NCBI RefSeq assembly: GCF_004212215.1
Contig: NZ_QVFV01000004.1
Coordinates: 1 to 64,000 of the forward strand
Direction: 5' to 3'
Source: Leptolyngbya iicbica LK
Lineage (GTDB): Bacteria > Cyanobacteriota > Cyanobacteriia > Phormidesmidales > Phormidesmidaceae
Length of the DNA stretch: 64,000 bases
Made by a program: the position numbers and the translations under genes
The notes under the pieces: model-generated
The model's input: the letters and a program-made list of their open reading frames with translations, nothing else
What the model was told of the DNA's origin: nothing
Databases searched by the model: none
Shown: positions 45,233 through 56,345 of the stretch, in pieces
Numbering within the stretch: position 1 is the stretch's first letter
Layout: each line of letters opens with the position of its first letter

Positions 45233-46183
45233 ATGGATGATATGCTGCCGCGTTGTCTATTAGCGATCGCTGGGCCGACGGCAACGGGTAAAACCGGTTT
45301 ATCGTTAGCGCTGGCAGAGCGGTTGTCGATCGCTATTTTGAGTGCTGATTCGCGGTTGGTTTATCGCGAGTTAGATATTGGCACTGCCAAGCCGAGCCAG
45401 ACGGAGCGATCGCAAGCGCCCCATTATTTGATTGATATTCGCGAGCCGACGGAGACGATGACCGTCGCGGAATATCAACGCTCGGCGCAAACGTTAATCC
45501 AGCAACTGCACCTCGAACAAGAGCGGGTGCCTTGTTTGGTGGGCGGCACTGGACTGTATATTTCATCGGTGGTGGATGGTTTGCAGATTCCCCCGGTGGC
45601 ACCGCAGCCGGAGTTGCGATCGCAGCTCCAACGATTGGGACAGCCTCAGTGTTACAGCATGTTGCAGCAAGTTGATCCGGTAGCAAGCGATCGCATTCAC
45701 GCCAACGATGCTGTCCGTACCATCCGCGCTTTAGAGGTGGCTTACGTGACGGGGCGACCGCTATCGGCTCAGCAAGGCCAGCATCCGCCCGACTACCCCA
45801 TCTTATATATCGGGCTTGATTGTGAGATCGAGGCACTGGCGGCGCGGATTCGACGACGGACAGCGCAGATGATTGAGCAGGGTTTAGTGGCCGAAGTCGA
45901 GCAGCTGTGCCAGCGATATGGCAAAGATTTACCCCTTCTGCAAACTCTGGGCTATGCAGAGATTTTGGGGTATCTGGCGGGCAATTATTCACTACCAGCG
46001 GCCGAGGAATTGATTGTCAAAAATACCCGTCAGTTTGCCAAACGCCAGCGTACCTGGTTTCGTAAGCAGGCGATCGCCTGGTTTGATGCCGACTCAGTTG
46101 ATCTACTAGAGGATGTCTGGCAGACCATCAAAACGTTCTGGGCGCAAGTCAACCAGGCAAAAACGTCTGCACCGAAGCCCTAG
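45233..46183 (+). CDS. miaA: tRNA dimethylallyltransferase
   Basis: A 316-residue enzyme that adds dimethylallyl to A37 of tRNAs reading codons that start with U. The P-loop is AIAGPTATGKTGLS (N-terminus), then ILSADSRLVYRELDIGTAKPS, VLTGGTGLYISS-like VGGTGLYISSVVDGL, RIHANDAVRTIRALEV, and C-terminal KNTRQFAKRQRTWFRKQ, all typical of MiaA. The stop codon (TAG at 46181-46183) overlaps the stop of ccmO on the opposite strand (palindromic CTAG at 46180-46183). Length is normal. Start is the first Met, MDDMLPRCLL. Confidence 0.95.
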   Translation: MDDMLPRCLLAIAGPTATGKTGLSLALAERLSIAILSADSRLVYRELDIGTAKPSQTERSQAPHYLIDIREPTETMTVAEYQRSAQTLIQQLHLEQERVPCLVGGTGLYISSVVDGLQIPPVAPQPELRSQLQRLGQPQCYSMLQQVDPVASDRIHANDAVRTIRALEVAYVTGRPLSAQQGQHPPDYPILYIGLDCEIEALAARIRRRTAQMIEQGLVAEVEQLCQRYGKDLPLLQTLGYAEILGYLAGNYSLPAAEELIVKNTRQFAKRQRTWFRKQAIAWFDADSVDLLEDVWQTIKTFWAQVNQAKTSAPKP

Positions 46184-47046
46184 TCCAATTCGCCTTCTTG
46201 TAGCGGCGGCGGTTGAGGCACGACCTTGAGTGGAGCTGGTTGAGGGTCTGCCGTTTTCGTCGGTTCGGGGACTGCCATTTCTTGAGCTACCTCTGCGGCA
46301 GCAGCTTCCGGCAATTCCACCAATTCTTTCTCTTTTTCTTCAAGCTTGAGGGGCAGGCGTACGGGCTGCTGCGTTTCCACTGCATCCGCTTGGGGTAAGG
46401 ACTGTTCGAGGTCATCTAGCGGTCGGGGAATGACCATCACGGCATGGAGTTCGCCGATGCGTTCGGCCTCGTGCATACCCGCTTCTACGGCGATCGCGAC
46501 ATTCGATAGCGAGCCCCGAATGATCACTGTACACAGTCCATCGCCAATGGATTGGTGGGCTACGACTTGTACTTCTGCGGCCTTGGTCATGGCGTCGGCA
46601 GCACCGACCATGGCTGGGAAGCCACGAGTTTCTAAGAGACCGAGGGCACCGCTCCCGACGCGCCCTTTACCGATGCGATCGAGCTCGTCCAAACGCATAC
46701 AAATCGGCAGCACCGCTTCCAGGTTCGGCAGCGGCCGAGGAATTAAGGATGACGAAATAAATTGGCCAAATTGTTTAGCGGTGGCCGTGCCCGCTTCCAC
46801 GGCCATCCGCACATCGGCGACGCCGCCGCGAACGACAGCCGTACAATGCCCCGCGCCAGTTTTTTCGTAACCGATGAGCATCACATCCGAAGACTTCAGC
46901 ATGGCATCGGCCGTGCCCACGACGGCGGGAAAGCTATGGGTAGAGACCATGCCCAGAGCCGCTCCCTTCAACTTTGAGGCCCATCGCTGAGCATGGGGTG
47001 AGGGTTTTGCCAGTGCTAGCTGTTTGGAATTAGTTGCCACCATCAC
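46180..47046 (-). CDS. ccmO: Carboxysome shell protein CcmO, tandem BMC domains
   Basis: A 288-residue shell protein with two bacterial-microcompartment domains that form a pseudohexameric trimer. Domain 1 is about 27-113 (GAALGMVSTHSFPAVVGTADAMLKSSDVMLIGYEKTGAGHCTAVVRGGVADV), domain 2 is about 132-218 (GALGLLETRGFPAMVGAADAMTKAAEVQVVAHQSIGDGLCTVIIRGSLSNV). A Pro/Glu-rich tail of about 70 residues follows, absent from hexameric CcmK, and might reach neighbouring proteins. CcmO is essential for shell closure in beta-carboxysomes. It is the last gene of the ccm operon, 87 bp after ccmN, and its stop shares four bases with convergent miaA. Confidence 0.97.
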   Translation of the reverse strand: MMVATNSKQLALAKPSPHAQRWASKLKGAALGMVSTHSFPAVVGTADAMLKSSDVMLIGYEKTGAGHCTAVVRGGVADVRMAVEAGTATAKQFGQFISSSLIPRPLPNLEAVLPICMRLDELDRIGKGRVGSGALGLLETRGFPAMVGAADAMTKAAEVQVVAHQSIGDGLCTVIIRGSLSNVAIAVEAGMHEAERIGELHAVMVIPRPLDDLEQSLPQADAVETQQPVRLPLKLEEKEKELVELPEAAAAEVAQEMAVPEPTKTADPQPAPLKVVPQPPPLQEGELD

Positions 47047-47133: not shown

Positions 47134-47727
47134 TCAGGACGGATTTTGACCGTTGTCGTTGAGCGCGTCGCGATGAGGGAATAGGGTCTTCATCAATTGC
47201 GTCACCTGCTCACGGCCATAGACGACCCGATTAGGGGTGAGGCCATTGCTTTCTGGGGTAGTTGGTGCTGCGCCATTCGGTTCGATCTCGGTTGCGGATG
47301 CGTCAGTCGTTTCTGGGTTGTCACCCGAATCAGCTGACGGTGCAGGCTGACCGTTACTCGCTGCCGGGCTGTCGGCGATCGCGTCGGGAATACCGTGGAG
47401 CGATCGCGCCGGTAGCACTGTTCCCGCCGCCACCTGCGGATTCAGCAAAGAACTCTCAGCACCAATACAAGCATGAGGTCCAACTAACCCTTGGCCGACA
47501 ACCAACACCCCACTGCCCAAGTTGACACCGGCCCCCAGTACCAGCTTGCCTCCCGCTGCTTGCACAATCACGCCTAAGCCCAGACAAACCCCGGAAGCAA
47601 TGACTAACCGAGCATCAGGAGCGGCTTCTAAAACAACCCCAGCGGCGATCGCCACATCCGGGGCAAGTTCGACATTGGCCCCGATGTAATAGTCGGCTGC
47701 TGCTCGTTGTTCATGTGCCTGCACCAT
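47134..47727 (-). CDS. ccmN: Carboxysome assembly protein CcmN
   Basis: A 197-residue adaptor. The N-terminal part (about 15-105) is a left-handed beta-helix with hexapeptide repeats (LAPDVAIAAGVVLEAAPDARLVIASGVCLGLGVIVQ) and binds the CcmM beta-helix. A low-complexity linker (about 115-170) connects it to a C-terminal amphipathic encapsulation peptide (about 174-192, RVVYGREQVTQLMKTLFPH) that docks to the shell proteins CcmK and CcmO. Both parts are needed for recruiting the shell to the procarboxysome. It starts 12 bp after the ccmM stop, so translation is likely coupled. Confidence 0.95.
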   Translation of the reverse strand: MVQAHEQRAAADYYIGANVELAPDVAIAAGVVLEAAPDARLVIASGVCLGLGVIVQAAGGKLVLGAGVNLGSGVLVVGQGLVGPHACIGAESSLLNPQVAAGTVLPARSLHGIPDAIADSPAASNGQPAPSADSGDNPETTDASATEIEPNGAAPTTPESNGLTPNRVVYGREQVTQLMKTLFPHRDALNDNGQNPS

Positions 47728-47739
47728 GCAAGAAATTGA

Positions 47740-49773
47740 CTAGGGTCGCTGAATGGTGGTCTCAAGTACCCGGCGTTTGGCTTGAGGATCAATGCCGACC
47801 AGCCGGACATATTCTCCCGCGTGGGAGGCCAAACCAGATTCCAAAGCCGATAGCACGGCAGACGGATTCTGTCCCTCAATCATGCCGCCAGTTTGCCAAG
47901 CGCCACTGCGGTAACGCCGGACATCAGCATGTTCCAGACTGATGCGGTAGCCTTGCCCGACGAGCTGCCGCACCTGTTGTACCACGTCCTCGCTAAGAGG
48001 GTGGTGGCCGTTGGTACTACTGCCATTAGCTGGGGCGGTGGCTGCGGCGTAGGTTGAACCGCTAGAGGCTGGAGCGCTGTTGCTGGCGTAGCTGGCTGAG
48101 TGACCATTGCTGCCTGCTTGGCCGGGGCGGTTAATGATAGTGGGTGCCAAGCGTTTTTTCGCGGTGGGATCGATGCCAAAAACGCGCACATATTCCCCAG
48201 CGTGCTCTTGCACACAAGCATTCAGGGCTGACAACACCTCACTTTCGCGAGTCGCCTCAATCGGTGAGCAAGTTTGCCACACATTGCTGCGGAAGCGGCG
48301 GGCGTCGGCATGCTCGGTGCCAATTTTGAAGCCTTGGCTCAATAATCCCCGAACCTGTTGCACGGCTTCGCTGGAGAGTTGACCGCTGGGGGCAGCTGCA
48401 GCCCCGTTGCCGGCGTAGCTTGCGGGAGCAGCAGCGGAACCGCCTCCGGTATTCCCCAGTGACGCGGGGCCGTCTGGTCGCTGAATCGTGACGGGCGAGA
48501 TGCGTCGCTTAGCAACGGGGTCAATCCCAAACATGCGGATATATTCGCCCGGATGCTCGTTGACACAAGCTTGGACTGCGGTCATGGCTTCCCGCTCTCC
48601 ACCGGCCTGCACTGGTGAACAGGTTTGCCACACGTTGCTGCGATAACGGCGGGCATCGGCATGCTCTAAGCCAATTTTGAAGCCTTGGCTTAACCAGTTG
48701 CGAATCTGGTGGCTCAGATCACCGCCTCCGTTACCGCTGGTACTATTTGGGCTGCTGTAGCTAGTGGCCGCACTGCTATGACCAGCGGTAGGGACGGCGT
48801 GAGTCTGGACCGCTACGGGTTTCCCATCAGGTCGCTGAATTGTGGTGGTAGCGATCCGCTGCTTTGCCGCTGGGTCAATCCCAAATAGCCGCACATACTC
48901 GCCTGCGTGCTCCTCTAAACAGGCCTCAAGGGCGGTTAATACATCGCCTTCACGGGTAGATTGGATGGGGCTACAAGTTTGCCAAACGTTGCTCCGGTAA
49001 CGACGAGCATCGGCATGTTCGGTGCCAATTTGGTAACCCTGGTTGAGCAGTTGTCGCACCTGTTGAACGATATCGGTCGTCAGTCTTTGAGGTTGCATGA
49101 TCTTAGTTCCGTTGTCTTGAGCGATAGAGGTAAGCGGTAAGCGATCGCGCTGATCGGCGACGTCAGATGGCTGCGAGGACGTCATAACGGCCTGCCCATA
49201 GCCTGCCCGCAGTGATTGATTAATAGTGCTGAGTTCTGCGACAAAGGCGAGATCTTGAGGCTGGGCATCGGCTAGGCGATCGGCTTGCTCTTGCTGCGTG
49301 ATCACCGCTCCCGAGGGCACAAGTTTGCCGGGTGGAATTTCGACATCCTGCACTAGGGCGTGCATCATGACGACGCAGCCAGCCCCCAAGCGGGCATTAA
49401 AAACCGTTGAGCGGAAACCCACGAAAGCATTGTCACCGATGTAAGCTGGCCCCTGAATGATGGCCTTGTGACCAATGCAGACGTTTACTCCGAGCCATAC
49501 GGAGTACGATTTATCATCGTCACCGAGCACTCGGCCCTCGCGCAAAGCGTGGATCACCACGCCATCTTGAATGACCGTGCCTGCCCCCAGGCTAAATACG
49601 ACATTTGTATCGGCGCGAATGACGGCACCGGGTGCCACCAATACATCCTCTGCAATCCGAACATCGCCAACGACCTCGGCAAAATCGTGCACGATCGCTG
49701 TCGTGTCGGATGCTAGTCGCCCAGAGCCAGACGCTTCAGACGTTGGCGGAGCTACTGCGCTTCGGGTCACCAT
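47740..49773 (-). CDS. ccmM: Carboxysome scaffold CcmM with gamma-carbonic-anhydrase domain and four RbcS-like repeats
   Basis: A 677-residue scaffold that organises Rubisco and links it to the shell. The N-terminal gamma-CA-like beta-helix is residues about 1-205. Zinc ligands His75 (VVIHALREG) and His102 ([13 protein letters not shown]) are present, but the third position is Gln107 (codon CAG at 49453-49455), where active homologues have His, so it is probably catalytically dead. Four Rubisco-small-subunit-like (SSUL) repeats follow from about 230 to 677. Repeats 1-3 carry two Cys each (WQTCSP and a Cys near the helix end), and repeat 4 has none. An internal ATG at 49098 (Met226, [14 protein letters not shown]) could start the shorter isoform of about 450 residues (M35-type) that lacks the carbonic-anhydrase domain. 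It is the fourth gene of the operon. Confidence 0.98.
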
Positions 49774-49883: not shown

Positions 49884-50186
49884 TTAACTGAAATCATCAC
49901 GCTTGCTGTACAACGTGCCTGAACTCAAAGAAACAGTATCGACAATGGCGATTACTGCGGCATCAACCGGACGATCGTGGTAACCCTGATGTTCCCGCGC
50001 ACCACTGCCTCGGGTAATCAGCACCCACTCTCCCGGTCCCGCCCCAACCACGTCAGCGGCGACCTCATAGTCTGGTAATGGCTCACCCGTATCACTGATG
50101 AGTTGCACCATCAAAAACTTGACGCCACTGAGACTCGGTTCCTTGCAGGTACTCACAACCGTGCCGCGAACTTTAGCCAAAAGCAT
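49884..50186 (-). CDS. ccmL: Carboxysome pentamer shell protein CcmL
   Basis: A 100-residue BMV-fold protein forming pentamers that cap the vertices of the icosahedral shell. The family pattern MLLAKVRGTVVSTCKEPSLSGVKFLMVQL starts the protein, and the pore region GAGPGEWVLITRGSGAR follows. Length is typical. It lies 13 bp after ccmK1, so it is co-transcribed; the gap to ccmM is 110 bp. Only a few copies are needed per carboxysome, so translation is expected to be lower than for CcmK. Confidence 0.97.
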   Translation of the reverse strand: MLLAKVRGTVVSTCKEPSLSGVKFLMVQLISDTGEPLPDYEVAADVVGAGPGEWVLITRGSGAREHQGYHDRPVDAAVIAIVDTVSLSSGTLYSKRDDFS

Positions 50187-50199
50187 AAAAAGCGTTTAC

Positions 50200-50538
50200 C
50201 TAACGGCCGTAGGGGCGAATACCACTAACGCTCTCGCGGAACTGTTCTACAGCCTCGGTATAACGGATGGGCAGCACAAATTCCAGGTTTTCGTGAGGAC
50301 GAGCGATGATGTGCGTTGAGAGCACTTGGCCTCCGTTCACTCGCTTCACATTCTCAACCCCGGCAGAAACCGAAGCTTGTACTTCAGAGACGTCTCCCCG
50401 CACGATCACCGTTACGCGACCGCTACCGATTTTCTCATAGCCCACCAGGGTTACCCGAGCTGCTTTCACCATGGCATCAGCAGCTTCAACAACAGCTGGG
50501 AAGCCCAAGGTTTCAATCATGCCAACGGCAATGGCCAT
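50200..50538 (-). CDS. ccmK1: Carboxysome hexamer shell protein CcmK1
   Basis: A 112-residue single-BMC-domain shell protein that forms hexamers in the flat facets. The pore loop is KIGSGRVTV, as in CcmK1/K2. It differs from the upstream CcmK2 in its longer C-terminal tail ([14 protein letters not shown]). AAAGGAGTT gives a strong ribosome binding site before the ATG. The K1/K2 naming rests on order (K2-K1-L-M-N, as in Synechocystis) and on the longer tail. The two paralogues differ at few positions, so a recent duplication or gene conversion is likely. Confidence 0.95.
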
Positions 50539-50850: not shown

Positions 50851-51159
50851 CTAGGTTCTAAACTGCTCTACGGCTTCGGTATACCGAATCGGCAACACAA
50901 ACTCCAAGTTTTCGTGGGGACGAGCAATGATGTGGGTCGATAGAACTTCGCCACCATTGACCCGCTTGGCAGACTCAATCCCAGCAGAAACCGAAGCCTG
51001 CACCTCAGAAACGTCGCCACGCACAATCACGGTGACTCGGCCACTGCCAATCTTTTCGTAGCCCACCAAAGTTACCCGGGCTGCTTTCACCATGGCATCA
51101 GCAGCTTCAACAACGGCAGGGAAACCCTTGGTTTCAATCATTCCAACTGCAATAGGCAT
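50851..51159 (-). CDS. ccmK2: Carboxysome hexamer shell protein CcmK2
   Basis: A 102-residue BMC protein and the main shell facet subunit. The sequence starts [49 protein letters not shown], with the charged pore motif KIGSGR. A ribosome binding site (AGAGGGAGATAA) precedes the start. It is the first gene of the ccm operon, so its promoter lies in the 636-bp region shared with ndhF3. Length is the usual 102-103 residues. Confidence 0.97.
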
Positions 51160-51795: not shown

Positions 51796-53631
51796 ATGGC
51801 AGATTTTTGGATGCAAAGTGGCTGGCTGATTCCGGCCTATGGATTGATGGGGGCGATCGCCACCTTGCCCTGGTCGATCGGGTTGATTCGTCGCACAGGG
51901 CAGCGCCCAGCGGCGTATCTCAATCTCGTGATGACGCTGCTGGCCTTTGTGCATGGCATCGGAGCCTTTCGATATGTCCGTCAGCACGGGGCGCAGGAGC
52001 TGAACTGGGATTGGTTCCAAATTACGGACTTGACCCTGCATGTGTCTTTCGAGCTCTCTCGGTTAAGTCTGGGCATCGTACTGTTGATTACTGGCTTGAG
52101 CTTTTTGGCACAGCTGTTTGCGCTGGGCTATTTAGAAAAAGATTGGGCTTTGGGACGCTTCTATGGGCTGATGGGCTTTTTTGAAGCGGCGATGAGTGGG
52201 GTGATTTTGAGCAGTTCGCTGTTCTTGTCTTATTCCTTGTTGGAGATGTTGACGCTATCGACCTATTTGCTGGTCGGTTTTTGGTATGCGCAGCCGCTGG
52301 TAGTGACGGCGGCCCGGGACGCCTTTTTGACCAAACGCATTGGCGATGTACTGCTGCTTATGGGCATGATTGCCCTGTCGGCGTTTGCAGGGAGTTTGCG
52401 TTTCAATGACCTGTACGAATGGGTGAAGGTGGCGGATTTAGCGCCGCTGGTGGCCACGCTGCTGGGAGTGGCCCTGATTGCTGGCCCGACGGGCAAGTGT
52501 GCACAATTTCCCCTCCACCTCTGGTTAGACGAGGCGATGGAAGGCCCCAACCCAGCATCGATTTTGCGCAATTCAGTCGTGGTGACCTGCGGGGCGTATG
52601 TGCTCATTCGTCTACAGCCGATTGTCGTGCTGTCTCCGATCGCCTTAGATGTGCTGGTTTTTATTGGCACGGTCACGGCGCTGGGGGCATCATTGGTCGC
52701 GCTGGCCCAAGTGGATATTAAGCGGACGTTTTCTTACTCCACCAGTGCTTATTTAGGGCTGGTCTTTATCGCTGTCGGTACTGAGTGGCCGGGGGTGGCC
52801 CTGACGATTTTGCTGACCCACGCGATCGCTAAAGCGCTCCTTTTCATGAGTGTCGGGGCGATCATTTTGACAACCAACTGCCAAGACCTCACTGAGTTAG
52901 GGGGCCTAGCCCGCAAGATGCCTGCGACTACGGTGGCTTACATCACCGCCGGATTGGGGATGGTTGGCATTTTTCCCTTGGGCTGTTTCTGGGGGTACAA
53001 CCTGGGCATTGAATTTTTCTGGCAATCACAGCCCGCTTTGGTTGCCGTCTTTTTGCTGGTGAATTTGCTGACTGCCTTAAACCTGACCCGAGTGTTTCGC
53101 CTGATTTTCTTAGGCTCGGCCCAACCTAAGACACGGCGAGCTCCGGAGGTGCCTTGGCCGATGGCTGTGCCGATGGTAACGCTGGTCGGCGTGACGCTGT
53201 TGCTGCCCTTAGGGATGCACCAAATGGATCTGCTACCGCCTTGGCGATATATCAACTTGACGGCGTTTGTCTTGTTAATGGCGTCAGGCGTCGCGGGAGT
53301 TGCGATCGGGGCGACTATGCCGCTGAGTCAAGCCTTGGCCCGGTCGACTCAAAAACCCCTGCGGATTTTGCAAGATTTACTGGCTTATGACTTCTACACC
53401 GAAAAGCTCTATCGCCTTACCGTCGTTGGCCTAGTTGAGCGGTTGTCTTTTGCCAGTAGCTGGTTCGATCGCTACGTTGTCGACGGCTTGGTCAACAGTA
53501 TCGGGCTGGCGTCGTTGATGGGAGGCGAAAGCTTGAAATACAGCATATCGGGGCGATCGCAAGGCTACATCCTCACCATCGTATTTGGGGTGGGGCTGCT
53601 GATGCTATTGACGACTTGGAAACTGTGGTAA
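51796..53631 (+). CDS. ndhF3: NDH-1 subunit NdhF3 (CO2-uptake complex)
   Basis: A 611-residue proton-pumping membrane subunit of the inducible NDH-1MS complex, which powers CO2 hydration on the thylakoid membrane. It has about 15-16 membrane helices and the conserved core of antiporter-like NdhF (GPTGKCAQFPLHLWLDEAMEGPNPASILRN, with lysine and histidine residues of the proton channel; FSYSTSAYLGLVFIAVG; LLTHAIAKALLFMSVGAI). It is shorter at the C-terminus than NdhF1, as expected for NdhF3. The order ndhF3-ndhD3-cupA is the diagnostic signature. Next gene starts nine bases downstream. Confidence 0.95.
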   Translation: MADFWMQSGWLIPAYGLMGAIATLPWSIGLIRRTGQRPAAYLNLVMTLLAFVHGIGAFRYVRQHGAQELNWDWFQITDLTLHVSFELSRLSLGIVLLITGLSFLAQLFALGYLEKDWALGRFYGLMGFFEAAMSGVILSSSLFLSYSLLEMLTLSTYLLVGFWYAQPLVVTAARDAFLTKRIGDVLLLMGMIALSAFAGSLRFNDLYEWVKVADLAPLVATLLGVALIAGPTGKCAQFPLHLWLDEAMEGPNPASILRNSVVVTCGAYVLIRLQPIVVLSPIALDVLVFIGTVTALGASLVALAQVDIKRTFSYSTSAYLGLVFIAVGTEWPGVALTILLTHAIAKALLFMSVGAIILTTNCQDLTELGGLARKMPATTVAYITAGLGMVGIFPLGCFWGYNLGIEFFWQSQPALVAVFLLVNLLTALNLTRVFRLIFLGSAQPKTRRAPEVPWPMAVPMVTLVGVTLLLPLGMHQMDLLPPWRYINLTAFVLLMASGVAGVAIGATMPLSQALARSTQKPLRILQDLLAYDFYTEKLYRLTVVGLVERLSFASSWFDRYVVDGLVNSIGLASLMGGESLKYSISGRSQGYILTIVFGVGLLMLLTTWKLW

Positions 53632-53640
53632 GGCCAGAGC

Positions 53641-55161
53641 ATGATGTTGAGTGCGTTAATTTTGATTCCCCTGGTGGGGGCATTAATCGTTAGTCTGTGG
53701 CCACGATCGCGGCCTAATCCAGAAGTGGGGCAGGTGGCTTTGGTGGTGCAAGCCCTGTCTTTGGTGGGCGCGATCGTGGTGGCGACGCAGTTTGACATTC
53801 AGCAGCCCGACTTGCAATTTGTCGAATCGTTGCCATGGATCGACACCCTGGGCCTCACTTATCAACTGGGGGTGGATGGGTTATCCATGCCGCTACTGGT
53901 GATCAACAGCCTGTTGGGTGCGATCTCGGTTTACGCGACCGCCACCACGATTCCGCGCCCGCGACTCTATTTCACGCTGATGCTACTGATTAATGCGGCG
54001 GTGGCGGGGGCGTTTCTGGCGCAAAACCTGATTCTGTTTTTCATCTTCTATGAGCTAGAGCTAATTCCGCTGTACTTGCTCATTGCCATTTGGGGTGGGG
54101 CGCGGCGGGGCTATGCGGCCACCAAGTTTTTGATTTACACCGCCACGTCCGGCATTTTGATTCTGGGCGGGTTTCTAGGATTTGTGTGGCTGGGGGGCAC
54201 GGGCTCCTTCAACTACGATGCGACCCTGGCCCAATCGATGACGCTTTTCCAGCAGGGTGCGATCTTAATCGCAATTTTGATTGGCTTTGGCATCAAGATT
54301 CCGCTGTTTCCCTTTCACACCTGGCTGCCGGATGCCCACGTCGAAGCGTCGACCCCGGTATCGGTGCTCTTAGCGGGGGTGCTGCTGAAACTAGGCACCT
54401 ACGGCATCGTGCGCTTTGGCCTACAAATGTTGCCGGATGCTTGGGCCTTCTTTGCCCCTTGGCTGGCGATCTGGGCTGTGGTGAGTGTGCTCTATGGTTC
54501 GCTCGCCGCGATCGCCCAAACCGATATGAAAAAAATGGTGGCCTACAGCTCCATTGGTCATATGGGTTACATCTTGTTGGCGGCAGCGGCAGCAACGCCT
54601 CTGGCCATCTTGGGAACGGTGATGCAAATGGTCAGCCACGGGCTGATCTCAGGTCTGTTGTTTCTGCTCGTGGGCATCGTTTACACCACGACGGGAACGC
54701 GCGACCTGACCGTATTGCGGGGATTGCTCAATCCCGAGCGAGGGTTGCCTCTGGTGGGTAGTCTGATGATTTTGGGCGTGATGGCCAGTGCGGGCATTCC
54801 TGGCATGGTGGGCTTCATTTCCGAATTTGTGGTGTTTCGCGGTAGCTTCCTCGCCTTTCCGGTGCCGACGCTGCTGTGTATGGTCGGTGCGGGTCTGACG
54901 GCAGTGTATTTCTTACTGCTGGTTAATCGGGCATTTTTTGGCCGATTAGCGGTGACGCCCCCCAGCGACAAAGTGGTGCCGGATGTGCTGTTGCCGTCAG
55001 TGGCTTGGCGCGATCGCCTGCCAGCCATTGCCCTTGCCCTGTTGATTGTGACCCTCGGATTGCAGCCGCACTGGCTCTCGCGCTGGAGCGAAGTCACGAC
55101 CCTGGCCTGGCGATCGCCCAGCGTCGAAATCGCTCAGCAACTGCCGCCAGATCGCCCCTAA
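53641..55161 (+). CDS. ndhD3: NDH-1 subunit NdhD3 (CO2-uptake complex)
   Basis: A 506-residue antiporter-like membrane subunit with about 14 helices. Conserved segments include LGVDGLSMPLLVINSLLGA, FFIFYELELIPLYLLIAIWGG (channel Glu), IPLFPFHTWLPDAHVEASTPVSVLLAGVLLKLGTYGI and the DMKKMVAYSSIGHMGYILL motif with a key Lys. It sits beside NdhF3 in NDH-1MS. The MMLSALILIPL start follows AGAGC and is nine bases after ndhF3, so translation is coupled. The assignment as D3 rather than D1/D2/D4 rests on the operon. Confidence 0.94.
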   Translation: MMLSALILIPLVGALIVSLWPRSRPNPEVGQVALVVQALSLVGAIVVATQFDIQQPDLQFVESLPWIDTLGLTYQLGVDGLSMPLLVINSLLGAISVYATATTIPRPRLYFTLMLLINAAVAGAFLAQNLILFFIFYELELIPLYLLIAIWGGARRGYAATKFLIYTATSGILILGGFLGFVWLGGTGSFNYDATLAQSMTLFQQGAILIAILIGFGIKIPLFPFHTWLPDAHVEASTPVSVLLAGVLLKLGTYGIVRFGLQMLPDAWAFFAPWLAIWAVVSVLYGSLAAIAQTDMKKMVAYSSIGHMGYILLAAAAATPLAILGTVMQMVSHGLISGLLFLLVGIVYTTTGTRDLTVLRGLLNPERGLPLVGSLMILGVMASAGIPGMVGFISEFVVFRGSFLAFPVPTLLCMVGAGLTAVYFLLLVNRAFFGRLAVTPPSDKVVPDVLLPSVAWRDRLPAIALALLIVTLGLQPHWLSRWSEVTTLAWRSPSVEIAQQLPPDRP

Positions 55162-55199
55162 ATCAATCATTCTGATGCTGTTCATCCGTGCCCTGAACC

Positions 55200-56345
55200 A
55201 TGACTAACACCCTGTCTCCCACTCCAATTACCGATCATCCCCTGCAACCCTTTATTGAGCGGTTGCTGAACGCTGAAGCCCTGCTGCCTGATACTGAAAT
55301 CAACTTGTTAGAGGTGGTGGGCATTCTCAAAAGTTACGGTGTGGTCTTGGACGCTTACGCCGTCAATCTGAAGTACATCGCGGATCATCAATTTTTGTTG
55401 CTGTTTCCGTTCTTCAAATATTTCAACGGCGACATCACGTTCAACAAACTGCTAAAGCACTGGTGGCACGATCGCATTAACTACGAATATGCCGAATACT
55501 GCATGCGCACGATGCTCTGGCACGGGGGCGGCGGGCTCGATGAGTATCTCGACAGCGAGGAATTTCAGCAAAATTGCGAACAGGCGATTCAGGCCAAGCT
55601 CAAAGGCAACATTTTCATGCAAACGCTGCATCGGCTATTTCCCGAATTTTTGCCCGAACAAGTGCGGCAGTCGGCCTACTACAGCGGCTTGGGCCAATTT
55701 TGGACGGTGATGAGCGAAATGTTTCTCACCCTGTCGGATTTGTATGACCAAAAGCGCATTACTTCCATCCCCGAAGTGGTGGCTCACATCAAGGATGGAC
55801 TGGTGGCCGCTGCTAGTTTGCCGATCACCTATAGCGTGGAAATTCGAGGCGATCGCTACGACTTGTTGCCCGAGTCTGCTGGGTTGACCTTCCTCATGGA
55901 TACCGCTGTCCCCTATGTAGAAGCCGTTTTCTTCCGTGGCACCCCTTTCTTAGGCACGGTTTCCTACAACGCTCAGGTGCAGCAAATTTCGCCGGATCAA
56001 TCCCGCTTTGACTATGGCGCGCTCTACGCTGACCCGATTCCGGTGGGGGGCGCGGGTATTCCCCCCACCTTGCTGATGCAAGACATGCGCCACTTTCTCC
56101 CCGATTACCTGGCAGACTACTATCGCCAAAGCCTGCGGGGCGACGCCGACGTACGGGTGCAAATTACCCAAAGCTTCCAAAAATCGATGTTTTGCGTCAC
56201 CTCTGCTGCTCTTCAGGGCTTGCTGCCCTATGCGCCGAAGACTGAGGTGCCCGCCGAGCAAGCCGCTAATCAGGCATTCCTTGCCAGTTGGATGGATCGG
56301 CTAATGTCGTCACGGCTCGCTGTCGTTCAACTTGCTGAACGGTAG
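55200..56345 (+). CDS. cupA: CO2 hydration protein CupA
   Basis: A 381-residue peripheral protein that, with NDH-1MS, converts CO2 to bicarbonate in a redox- or pump-driven reaction. It has no membrane helix. The His/Arg/Cys-rich segment KHWWHDRINYEYAEYCMRTMLWHGGG (about 86-110) lies where the metal/active site is placed in reported structures of the complex. Length is in the range known for CupA (ChpY). It is the third gene of the operon, 38 bp after ndhD3. CupS, which often follows cupA, is missing; DUF427 follows on the opposite strand instead. Confidence 0.95.
   Translation: MTNTLSPTPITDHPLQPFIERLLNAEALLPDTEINLLEVVGILKSYGVVLDAYAVNLKYIADHQFLLLFPFFKYFNGDITFNKLLKHWWHDRINYEYAEYCMRTMLWHGGGGLDEYLDSEEFQQNCEQAIQAKLKGNIFMQTLHRLFPEFLPEQVRQSAYYSGLGQFWTVMSEMFLTLSDLYDQKRITSIPEVVAHIKDGLVAAASLPITYSVEIRGDRYDLLPESAGLTFLMDTAVPYVEAVFFRGTPFLGTVSYNAQVQQISPDQSRFDYGALYADPIPVGGAGIPPTLLMQDMRHFLPDYLADYYRQSLRGDADVRVQITQSFQKSMFCVTSAALQGLLPYAPKTEVPAEQAANQAFLASWMDRLMSSRLAVVQLAER

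Follow-up and report, generated by a model that had tools for sequence, protein, structure and literature searches.

Whether CcmM acts as an enzyme or as a scaffold decides which carbonic anhydrase (CA) feeds Rubisco in the beta-carboxysome, and the question is raised by the ccm locus of Leptolyngbya iicbica LK (hereafter LK), where the gamma-CA-like N-terminal domain of CcmM carries Gln at the position of the third zinc-binding His. The locus lies in the window analyzed here, a 64,000-nt stretch of contig NZ_QVFV01000004.1 (assembly GCF_004212215.1), to which coordinates refer unless another record is named, and comprises ccmK, ccmK, ccmL, ccmM, ccmN, and ccmO in this order on one strand, a ccmKLMNO arrangement (Table 1). 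The encoded CcmM has the make-up of a beta-carboxysome scaffold, with a gamma-CA-like domain followed by SSUL modules, and scores above the curated threshold. On the plus strand (51796-56345), divergent from the locus and separated from the nearest ccmK by about 640 bases, lie NdhF3, NdhD-type, and ChpXY CO2-hydration genes.

Table 1. Features of the ccm locus of LK and residues of the CcmM active site, in window coordinates.
Feature	Position	Strand	Details
ccmK, BMC-domain shell protein	50851-51159	minus	102 aa; PF00936
ccmK, BMC-domain shell protein	50200-50538	minus	112 aa; PF00936
ccmL	49884-50186	minus	100 aa; NF053795 155 bits (cut-off 125)
ccmM	47740-49773	minus	677 aa; NF053794 733 bits (cut-off 550); PF00101 in four stretches
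gamma-CA-like N-domain of CcmM, residues 1-200	49174-49773	minus	alignment to 3KWC/7O4Z, model
Thr56	49606-49608	minus	replaces conserved Glu of RADEG motif
His75	49549-49551	minus	codon CAC; first zinc ligand, kept (Gln in same-genus G389)
His102	49468-49470	minus	codon CAC; second zinc ligand, kept
Gln107	49453-49455	minus	codon CAG; replaces third zinc-binding His
Gln194 and Ser200 (residues 194-200)	49174-49194	minus	replace both Cys of activating disulfide
Four SSUL modules of CcmM	47743-49098	minus	48829-49098, 48475-48720, 48124-48375, 47743-47994
ccmN	47134-47727	minus	197 aa; NF053793 106 bits (cut-off 100)
ccmO	46180-47046	minus	288 aa; NF053792 338 bits (cut-off 270)

The preliminary description of this DNA had reported Gln at the third zinc-binding position in a gap-free alignment to active homologues, and both statements hold. 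Aligned with the active CcmM of Thermosynechococcus elongatus BP-1 (3KWC), the LK protein shows no gap over residues 2-193 and has the same residue numbering, with His75 and His102 kept, and Gln107 falls on the second His of the H-x4-H-G-P motif in 3KWC, in 7O4Z, and in the gamma-CA 9LIN. Where an active gamma-class enzyme has three His, LK CcmM thus has His75, His102, and Gln107. The Glu of the R-x-D-E-G motif, which has a catalytic role in gamma-class carbonic anhydrases, and the C-terminal Cys pair of active CcmM-type gamma-CAs are absent as well: Thr56 aligns with Glu in 3KWC, 7O4Z, and 9LIN, and Gly57, Pro59, Cys194, and Cys200 are also lost. The Cys pair has been called essential, with reference to Pena et al. 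2010 (PMC9120777, PMC5472144). Arg53, Asp55, and Gln69, beside the active site, are kept. The preliminary description is right as to residue 107 and makes no mention of the losses of Glu56 and Cys194/Cys200; a lone mutation at 107 was rejected given these other active-site losses in LK CcmM and its sisters. Because Gln107 is one of several losses common to three genomes of the genus, a Q107H reversion is no clean test, and by itself it would probably not bring back activity.

To assess how rare these replacements are, we surveyed an even draw of 386 genomes across the phylum, 208 of which gave a match, and took the 128 strongest N-domain sequences, from 126 genomes; the other 82 genomes matched less well (E above 2.5e-39) and lie outside the counts. 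Position 107 is His in 126 of these domains, Gln in one (LK), and Tyr in one, while Glu stands at position 56 in 117, Cys194 in 96, and Cys200 in 99. We call a long CcmM intact when it has the three His (HHH), Glu56, and the C-x5-C pair. Among 70 intact CcmM from genomes without a CcaA-type gene, Glu56 is present in 70/70, and 78 positions between residues 20 and 189 are at least 97% conserved; LK CcmM departs from them at 13, including 56, 57, 59, 76, and 107. These conservation counts cover sequences other than G175, which has an internal stop, and the fragment G413.

In a nearest-relative set of 39 genomes (LK included), Gln107 is common to LK and two genomes of the same genus, G389 and G390, all three without Glu and Cys; G389 has also lost His75, so that its site reads QHQ. 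Two further members of the genus, G386 and G388, retain all three His, Glu, and both Cys. The Gln107 codon is CAG in L221 (Halomicronema sp. CCY15110) and CAA in L222 (Leptolyngbya sp. SIOISBB); these two records seem to represent the genes of G389 and G390, respectively. LK, G389, and G390 cluster together on a domain tree, which makes a single origin of the change inside the genus the simplest account. More distant members of the family have Gln107 too, for example G398, G399, G400, and G407. Glu and Cys are lost and the three His kept in G207 and G406, and His107 is lost with Glu and Cys kept in G409; within the genus, all Gln107 genomes are without Glu and Cys, and the intact genomes have lost none. 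One pattern scan of viral contigs gave no confirmed copy of the CcmM domain.

The domain that has lost these residues shows signs of constraint. For the gamma-CA domain dN/dS is 0.076 between LK and L221 and, as a rough value at a dS of 1.9, 0.049 between LK and L222; for the SSUL part it is 0.070 against L221 and saturated against L222. AlphaFold2, run on one chain with 40 aligned sequences, gave a model of the N-domain with mean pLDDT 86 and pTM 0.82, which matches 7D6C, 7O4Z, and 3KWD at Z 29.5-30.6 and rmsd 1.1-1.2 over 165-169 residues. In this single-chain prediction the domain adopts the left-handed beta-helix, as in the gamma-CA of Methanosarcina thermophila (1QRF, 1THJ; Z 27.6-28.8), which is a zinc enzyme and not carboxysomal. 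By purifying selection and predicted fold the N-domain is thus no wreck, and a common fold in itself says nothing on function.

The preliminary description had predicted an inactive domain and a need for CcaA, or for another source of CO2 within the shell, and this reading is supported. The LK genome (5.72 Mb, 16 contigs, 99.99% complete) holds, by whole-genome search, one PF00484 beta-CA of 246 aa, on a contig other than that of the ccm locus, with the zinc motifs CSDSR and GHSQCG. Its best PDB match is 5SWC (residues 1-208, E 1.4e-91), the carboxysomal beta-CA CcaA of Synechocystis PCC 6803 (PMC10536570), a likeness which belongs to this partner gene and not to CcmM. Its tail, ...RLSREQAERIYRG, resembles the CcmM-docking C2 peptide of CcaA from Synechococcus elongatus PCC 7942 (hereafter 7942); the C-terminal helix reads LSREQAERIYRG, and the protein terminates in RLSREQAERIYRGTARV. 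No alpha-CA (PF00194) was found in the LK genome at E 0.001, and a stand-alone 182-aa gamma-CA-like ORF has three His at the ligand positions and lacks an SSUL module. From its sequence, LK CcaA would be carboxysomal. A CcaA homologue need not be, as CahB1 of Sodalinema gerasimenkoae makes plain: it is the only CcaA homologue of that organism and is extracellular, though the CcmM there looks inactive (PMC9865033, PMC5472144).

The CcmM domain of LK also retains the residues known to receive CcaA in 7942. The tail of 7942 CcaA forms a helix, PEQQQRIY, which docks into CcmM; there the C2 peptide contacts L81, F123, N124, R126, D141, E143, Q159, and D163 (PMC8580825). All eight residues are identical in LK CcmM (positions 83, 125, 126, 128, 143, 145, 161, and 165). 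The Arg of the tail, whose change abolished binding in 7942 (PMC8580825), has its equivalent in LK CcaA; the Trp (W257) that stacks on F123 and matters for docking (PMC8580825) has, by eye, no counterpart there. Judged by these residues, the LK CcmM domain would be expected to bind the CcaA tail.

To place the LK pair in a wider setting, we compared the state of CcmM with the presence of CcaA across genomes. A hit to LK CcaA was classed as CcaA-type at E below 1e-79, a limit chosen post hoc after the hits had been inspected; five genomes with intermediate hits (G022, G024, G183, G247, and G330) were counted as without CcaA, the tails of those in G022, G183, and G330 having no docking motif, and G386, whose hit runs off the end of a contig, was counted by hand as CcaA-bearing. 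In the phylum draw, 57 genomes have CcaA, with CcmM intact in 25 and broken in 32; all five genomes with intermediate hits are intact, as are 62 of the 64 with none. A broken site is therefore found in 32/57 genomes with CcaA versus 2/69 others (Fisher p 3.7e-12, kinship uncorrected), and, since 25 of the 57 CcaA-bearing genomes remain intact, CcaA permits decay and does not force it. On the domain tree, built with the trait columns removed and without G175, G413, G393, G390s, and G002s, and pruned of short copies before losses were counted, all nine parsimonious losses of the intact state fall on CcaA-bearing branches, with five reversals (P 0.0014 by branch length, 7e-5 by branch number). 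Similarly, six of six zinc-ligand losses do so, with two reversals (P 0.14 and 0.015, respectively). The independent-pairs test, with four pairs on supported branches, has no power. Because the tree is midpoint-rooted and was itself inferred from this short domain, and because independent pairs are so few, the association counts as support and not proof.

Zinc ligands are lost in 17 long CcmM (G175 aside), six in the draw and 11 among relatives, all from CcaA-bearing genomes, and a CcaA-type gene is present in 10 of 11 further zinc-ligand-lost genomes reached through genome_contigs. There are exceptions to the rule. G229 is without the Cys pair and gave no CcaA-type hit, in a draft of about 300 contigs; six of its congeners in the draw (G089, G091, G227, G245, G304, and G349) have CcaA. 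G175 has an HYH site and a stop codon inside the gene; no CcaA-type gene was found in its genome of 3.0 Mb. The clearest exception is the metagenome-assembled G417 (L265/L360), with an HHY site and intact Glu and Cys pair, where neither CcaA nor a short CcmM was found, in an assembly given without completeness.

The docking pocket is largely retained where the zinc site is not. Among the 17 zinc-ligand-lost CcmM, Gln161, Arg128, and Asp143 are kept in 17/17, Phe125 and Asn126 in 16/17, and Glu145 and Asp165 in 14/17; Glu56 is kept in one. Surfaces with a reported SSUL contact drift more, position 78 holding the common residue in 2/17. As for the other partner, a basic-aliphatic-Tyr motif beyond residue 200 occurs in 71 of 90 CcaA-like rows (four intermediate hits and three repeats of listed genes among them) and is missing in some rows classed as CcaA by E-value. 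The tails of G391, G403, and G398 (L318, L319, and L315) have RIF instead of RIY, and those of G203, G052, and G077 (L171, L175, and L176) are quite different. Two pocket positions vary with the presence of CcaA: Arg128 (49390-49392, minus strand) is found in 80/82 CcmM with CcaA versus 58/70 intact CcmM without, and Ile at position 83 in 7/82 with CcaA versus 34/70 without. Co-adaptation of pocket and tail at positions 128 and 83 may possibly account for this pattern.

Some genomes carry a second, short CcmM with a single SSUL module, of the satellite kind previously described (Sommer et al. 2017, PMC5853843). We found short copies of about 305-320 aa in 11 genomes of the draw and the relatives, all with HHH and C-x5-C; Pfam assigns one SSUL module to a short CcmM checked whole and to two more. 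The long CcmM partners in these genomes have lost a zinc ligand in five (G002, G290, G390, G396, and G409) and only the Cys pair in two (G391 and G403), are intact in three (G388, G397, and G410), and in G387 are represented by a protein cut by a contig end. True absence of the long CcmM in G387, and of CcmM in G394, was considered and set aside, since it is best explained by assemblies that break within or next to the ccm genes. Short copies in which the zinc site, Glu, and both Cys are all intact are found at L329:1129-2088 and in L330-L332, L334, L336, L338, L346, and L348, and the long CcmM that accompanies them is often degraded; among the matches listed, no report of this contrast in active sites was found in work on satellite copies. 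The short CcmM of G390 (L343:1009-1955) lies in two overlapping frames (72 and 244 aa), through a frameshift or a sequencing error, and L359 and L361 (records of L285 and L294) hold short CcmM with a non-homologous or shortened N-terminus and the His residues kept. No short CcmM is present in the LK genome.

Collectively, these data point to the N-domain of LK CcmM as a catalytically dead scaffold that recruits CcaA, a reading to which we give a probability of about 0.87. It draws on features read from sequence: the active-site losses, the CcaA with its zinc motifs and tail, the retained CcaA contacts, the low dN/dS, and the co-occurrence of broken sites with CcaA in the genome survey. The domain would keep its gamma-CA fold as a trimeric scaffold and would hold no zinc and have no activity; the C-terminal helix of CcaA would dock in the conserved pocket, the four SSUL modules would bind Rubisco, and the separate beta-class CcaA would supply CO2 within the carboxysome, in which case we would expect LK CcaA to be needed for growth in air.

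Two readings would rescue the enzyme or remove the anomaly. The domain could hold a metal through His75, His102, and Gln107 and contribute weak CA activity beside CcaA: Gln can in principle bind zinc weakly, two His, Arg53, Asp55, and Gln69 are kept, and the fold is predicted intact. We consider this improbable, as Glu56 and both Cys are lost in LK CcmM, the sister G389 has dispensed with His75 too (which suggests an unconstrained site), and only one of the 17 zinc-ligand-lost long CcmM (G409) has both Glu and the Cys pair. A sequencing or assembly error at 49453-49455, which the preliminary description had allowed for, would take a single base, CAG and CAC being one apart; Gln107 in two same-genus genomes, one of them with CAA, excludes it for practical purposes, the other losses in the same domain speak against it as well, and its probability is negligible. 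It is also very unlikely that another protein gives gamma-CA activity in the LK carboxysome. Intact short CcmM exist in 11 other genomes and the 182-aa LK protein has three His, but LK is without a short copy, and the 182-aa protein is without SSUL, with nothing found that links it to the carboxysome.

A further reading, compatible with a dead scaffold, is that Gln is favoured at emptied zinc positions, where it would repack the metal-free site or bind something else. Among 11 long CcmM without His107, the residue is Gln in eight, Tyr in two, and Asn in one, and Gln fills position 75 in eight of 13 that have lost His75; two of the eight nonsynonymous one-base changes of a His codon give Gln, both transversions, and Gln107 has persisted across a CAG/CAA difference. 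Against this, the rows share ancestry, the tree has only six changes at 107, and other fillers occur, with Tyr75 accompanying Gln107 in six of 15 zinc-ligand-lost rows from genome_contigs and one more reading YYQ. We regard this reading as possible but less likely than not, and likewise its extension, that the zinc site has been dismantled repeatedly with a preferred His to Gln change at 75 and 107, the pocket fixed, the satellites intact, and Gln the selected filler. If that were true, the CcmM family would show an enzyme turning into a docking platform in this filamentous cyanobacterial branch.

Several parts of this picture are already published. That active CcmM and CcaA are inversely related has been described (PMC9120777, PMC5472144, PMC10172474, PMC9865033), as has the idea of the gamma-CA-like (gammaCAL) domain as a docking platform (PMC8580825). 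In 7942, the gammaCAL domain is reported to be a non-functional CA (PMC9120777); it is alike in predicted fold (7O4Z, 7D6C; Z 29.7 and 30.6) and has the CcaA-docking pocket in common with LK, but 7942 CcmM keeps His75, His102, His107, and Glu, whereas LK CcmM has lost His107 and Glu. The Thermosynechococcus protein, from a genus without ccaA (PMC9120777), has three His, Glu, and the Cys pair, whereas LK CcmM has kept two His only. Satellite CcmM of other genomes, with a gamma-CA domain and SSUL, keep the active site, and LK has none. To this the present analysis adds that losses in this clade reach the zinc ligands, that they do so repeatedly, and that Gln most often fills positions 107 and 75; no paper pairing CcmM with His75, His102, or His107 was found among the matches listed, and a prior report is possible.

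Family membership alone is poor ground for calling a CcmM a gamma-CA. LK and its relatives present natural forms that are intact, without Glu and Cys, or without a zinc ligand, in which scaffolding can be distinguished from catalysis, and for carboxysome engineering a CcmM of the LK type would be a scaffold, presumably free of metal, for use with CcaA. A further SSUL-type module lies at G000:C1:1431006-1431257 within a 471-aa open frame, which has the size of an SSUL-tailed Rubisco activase.
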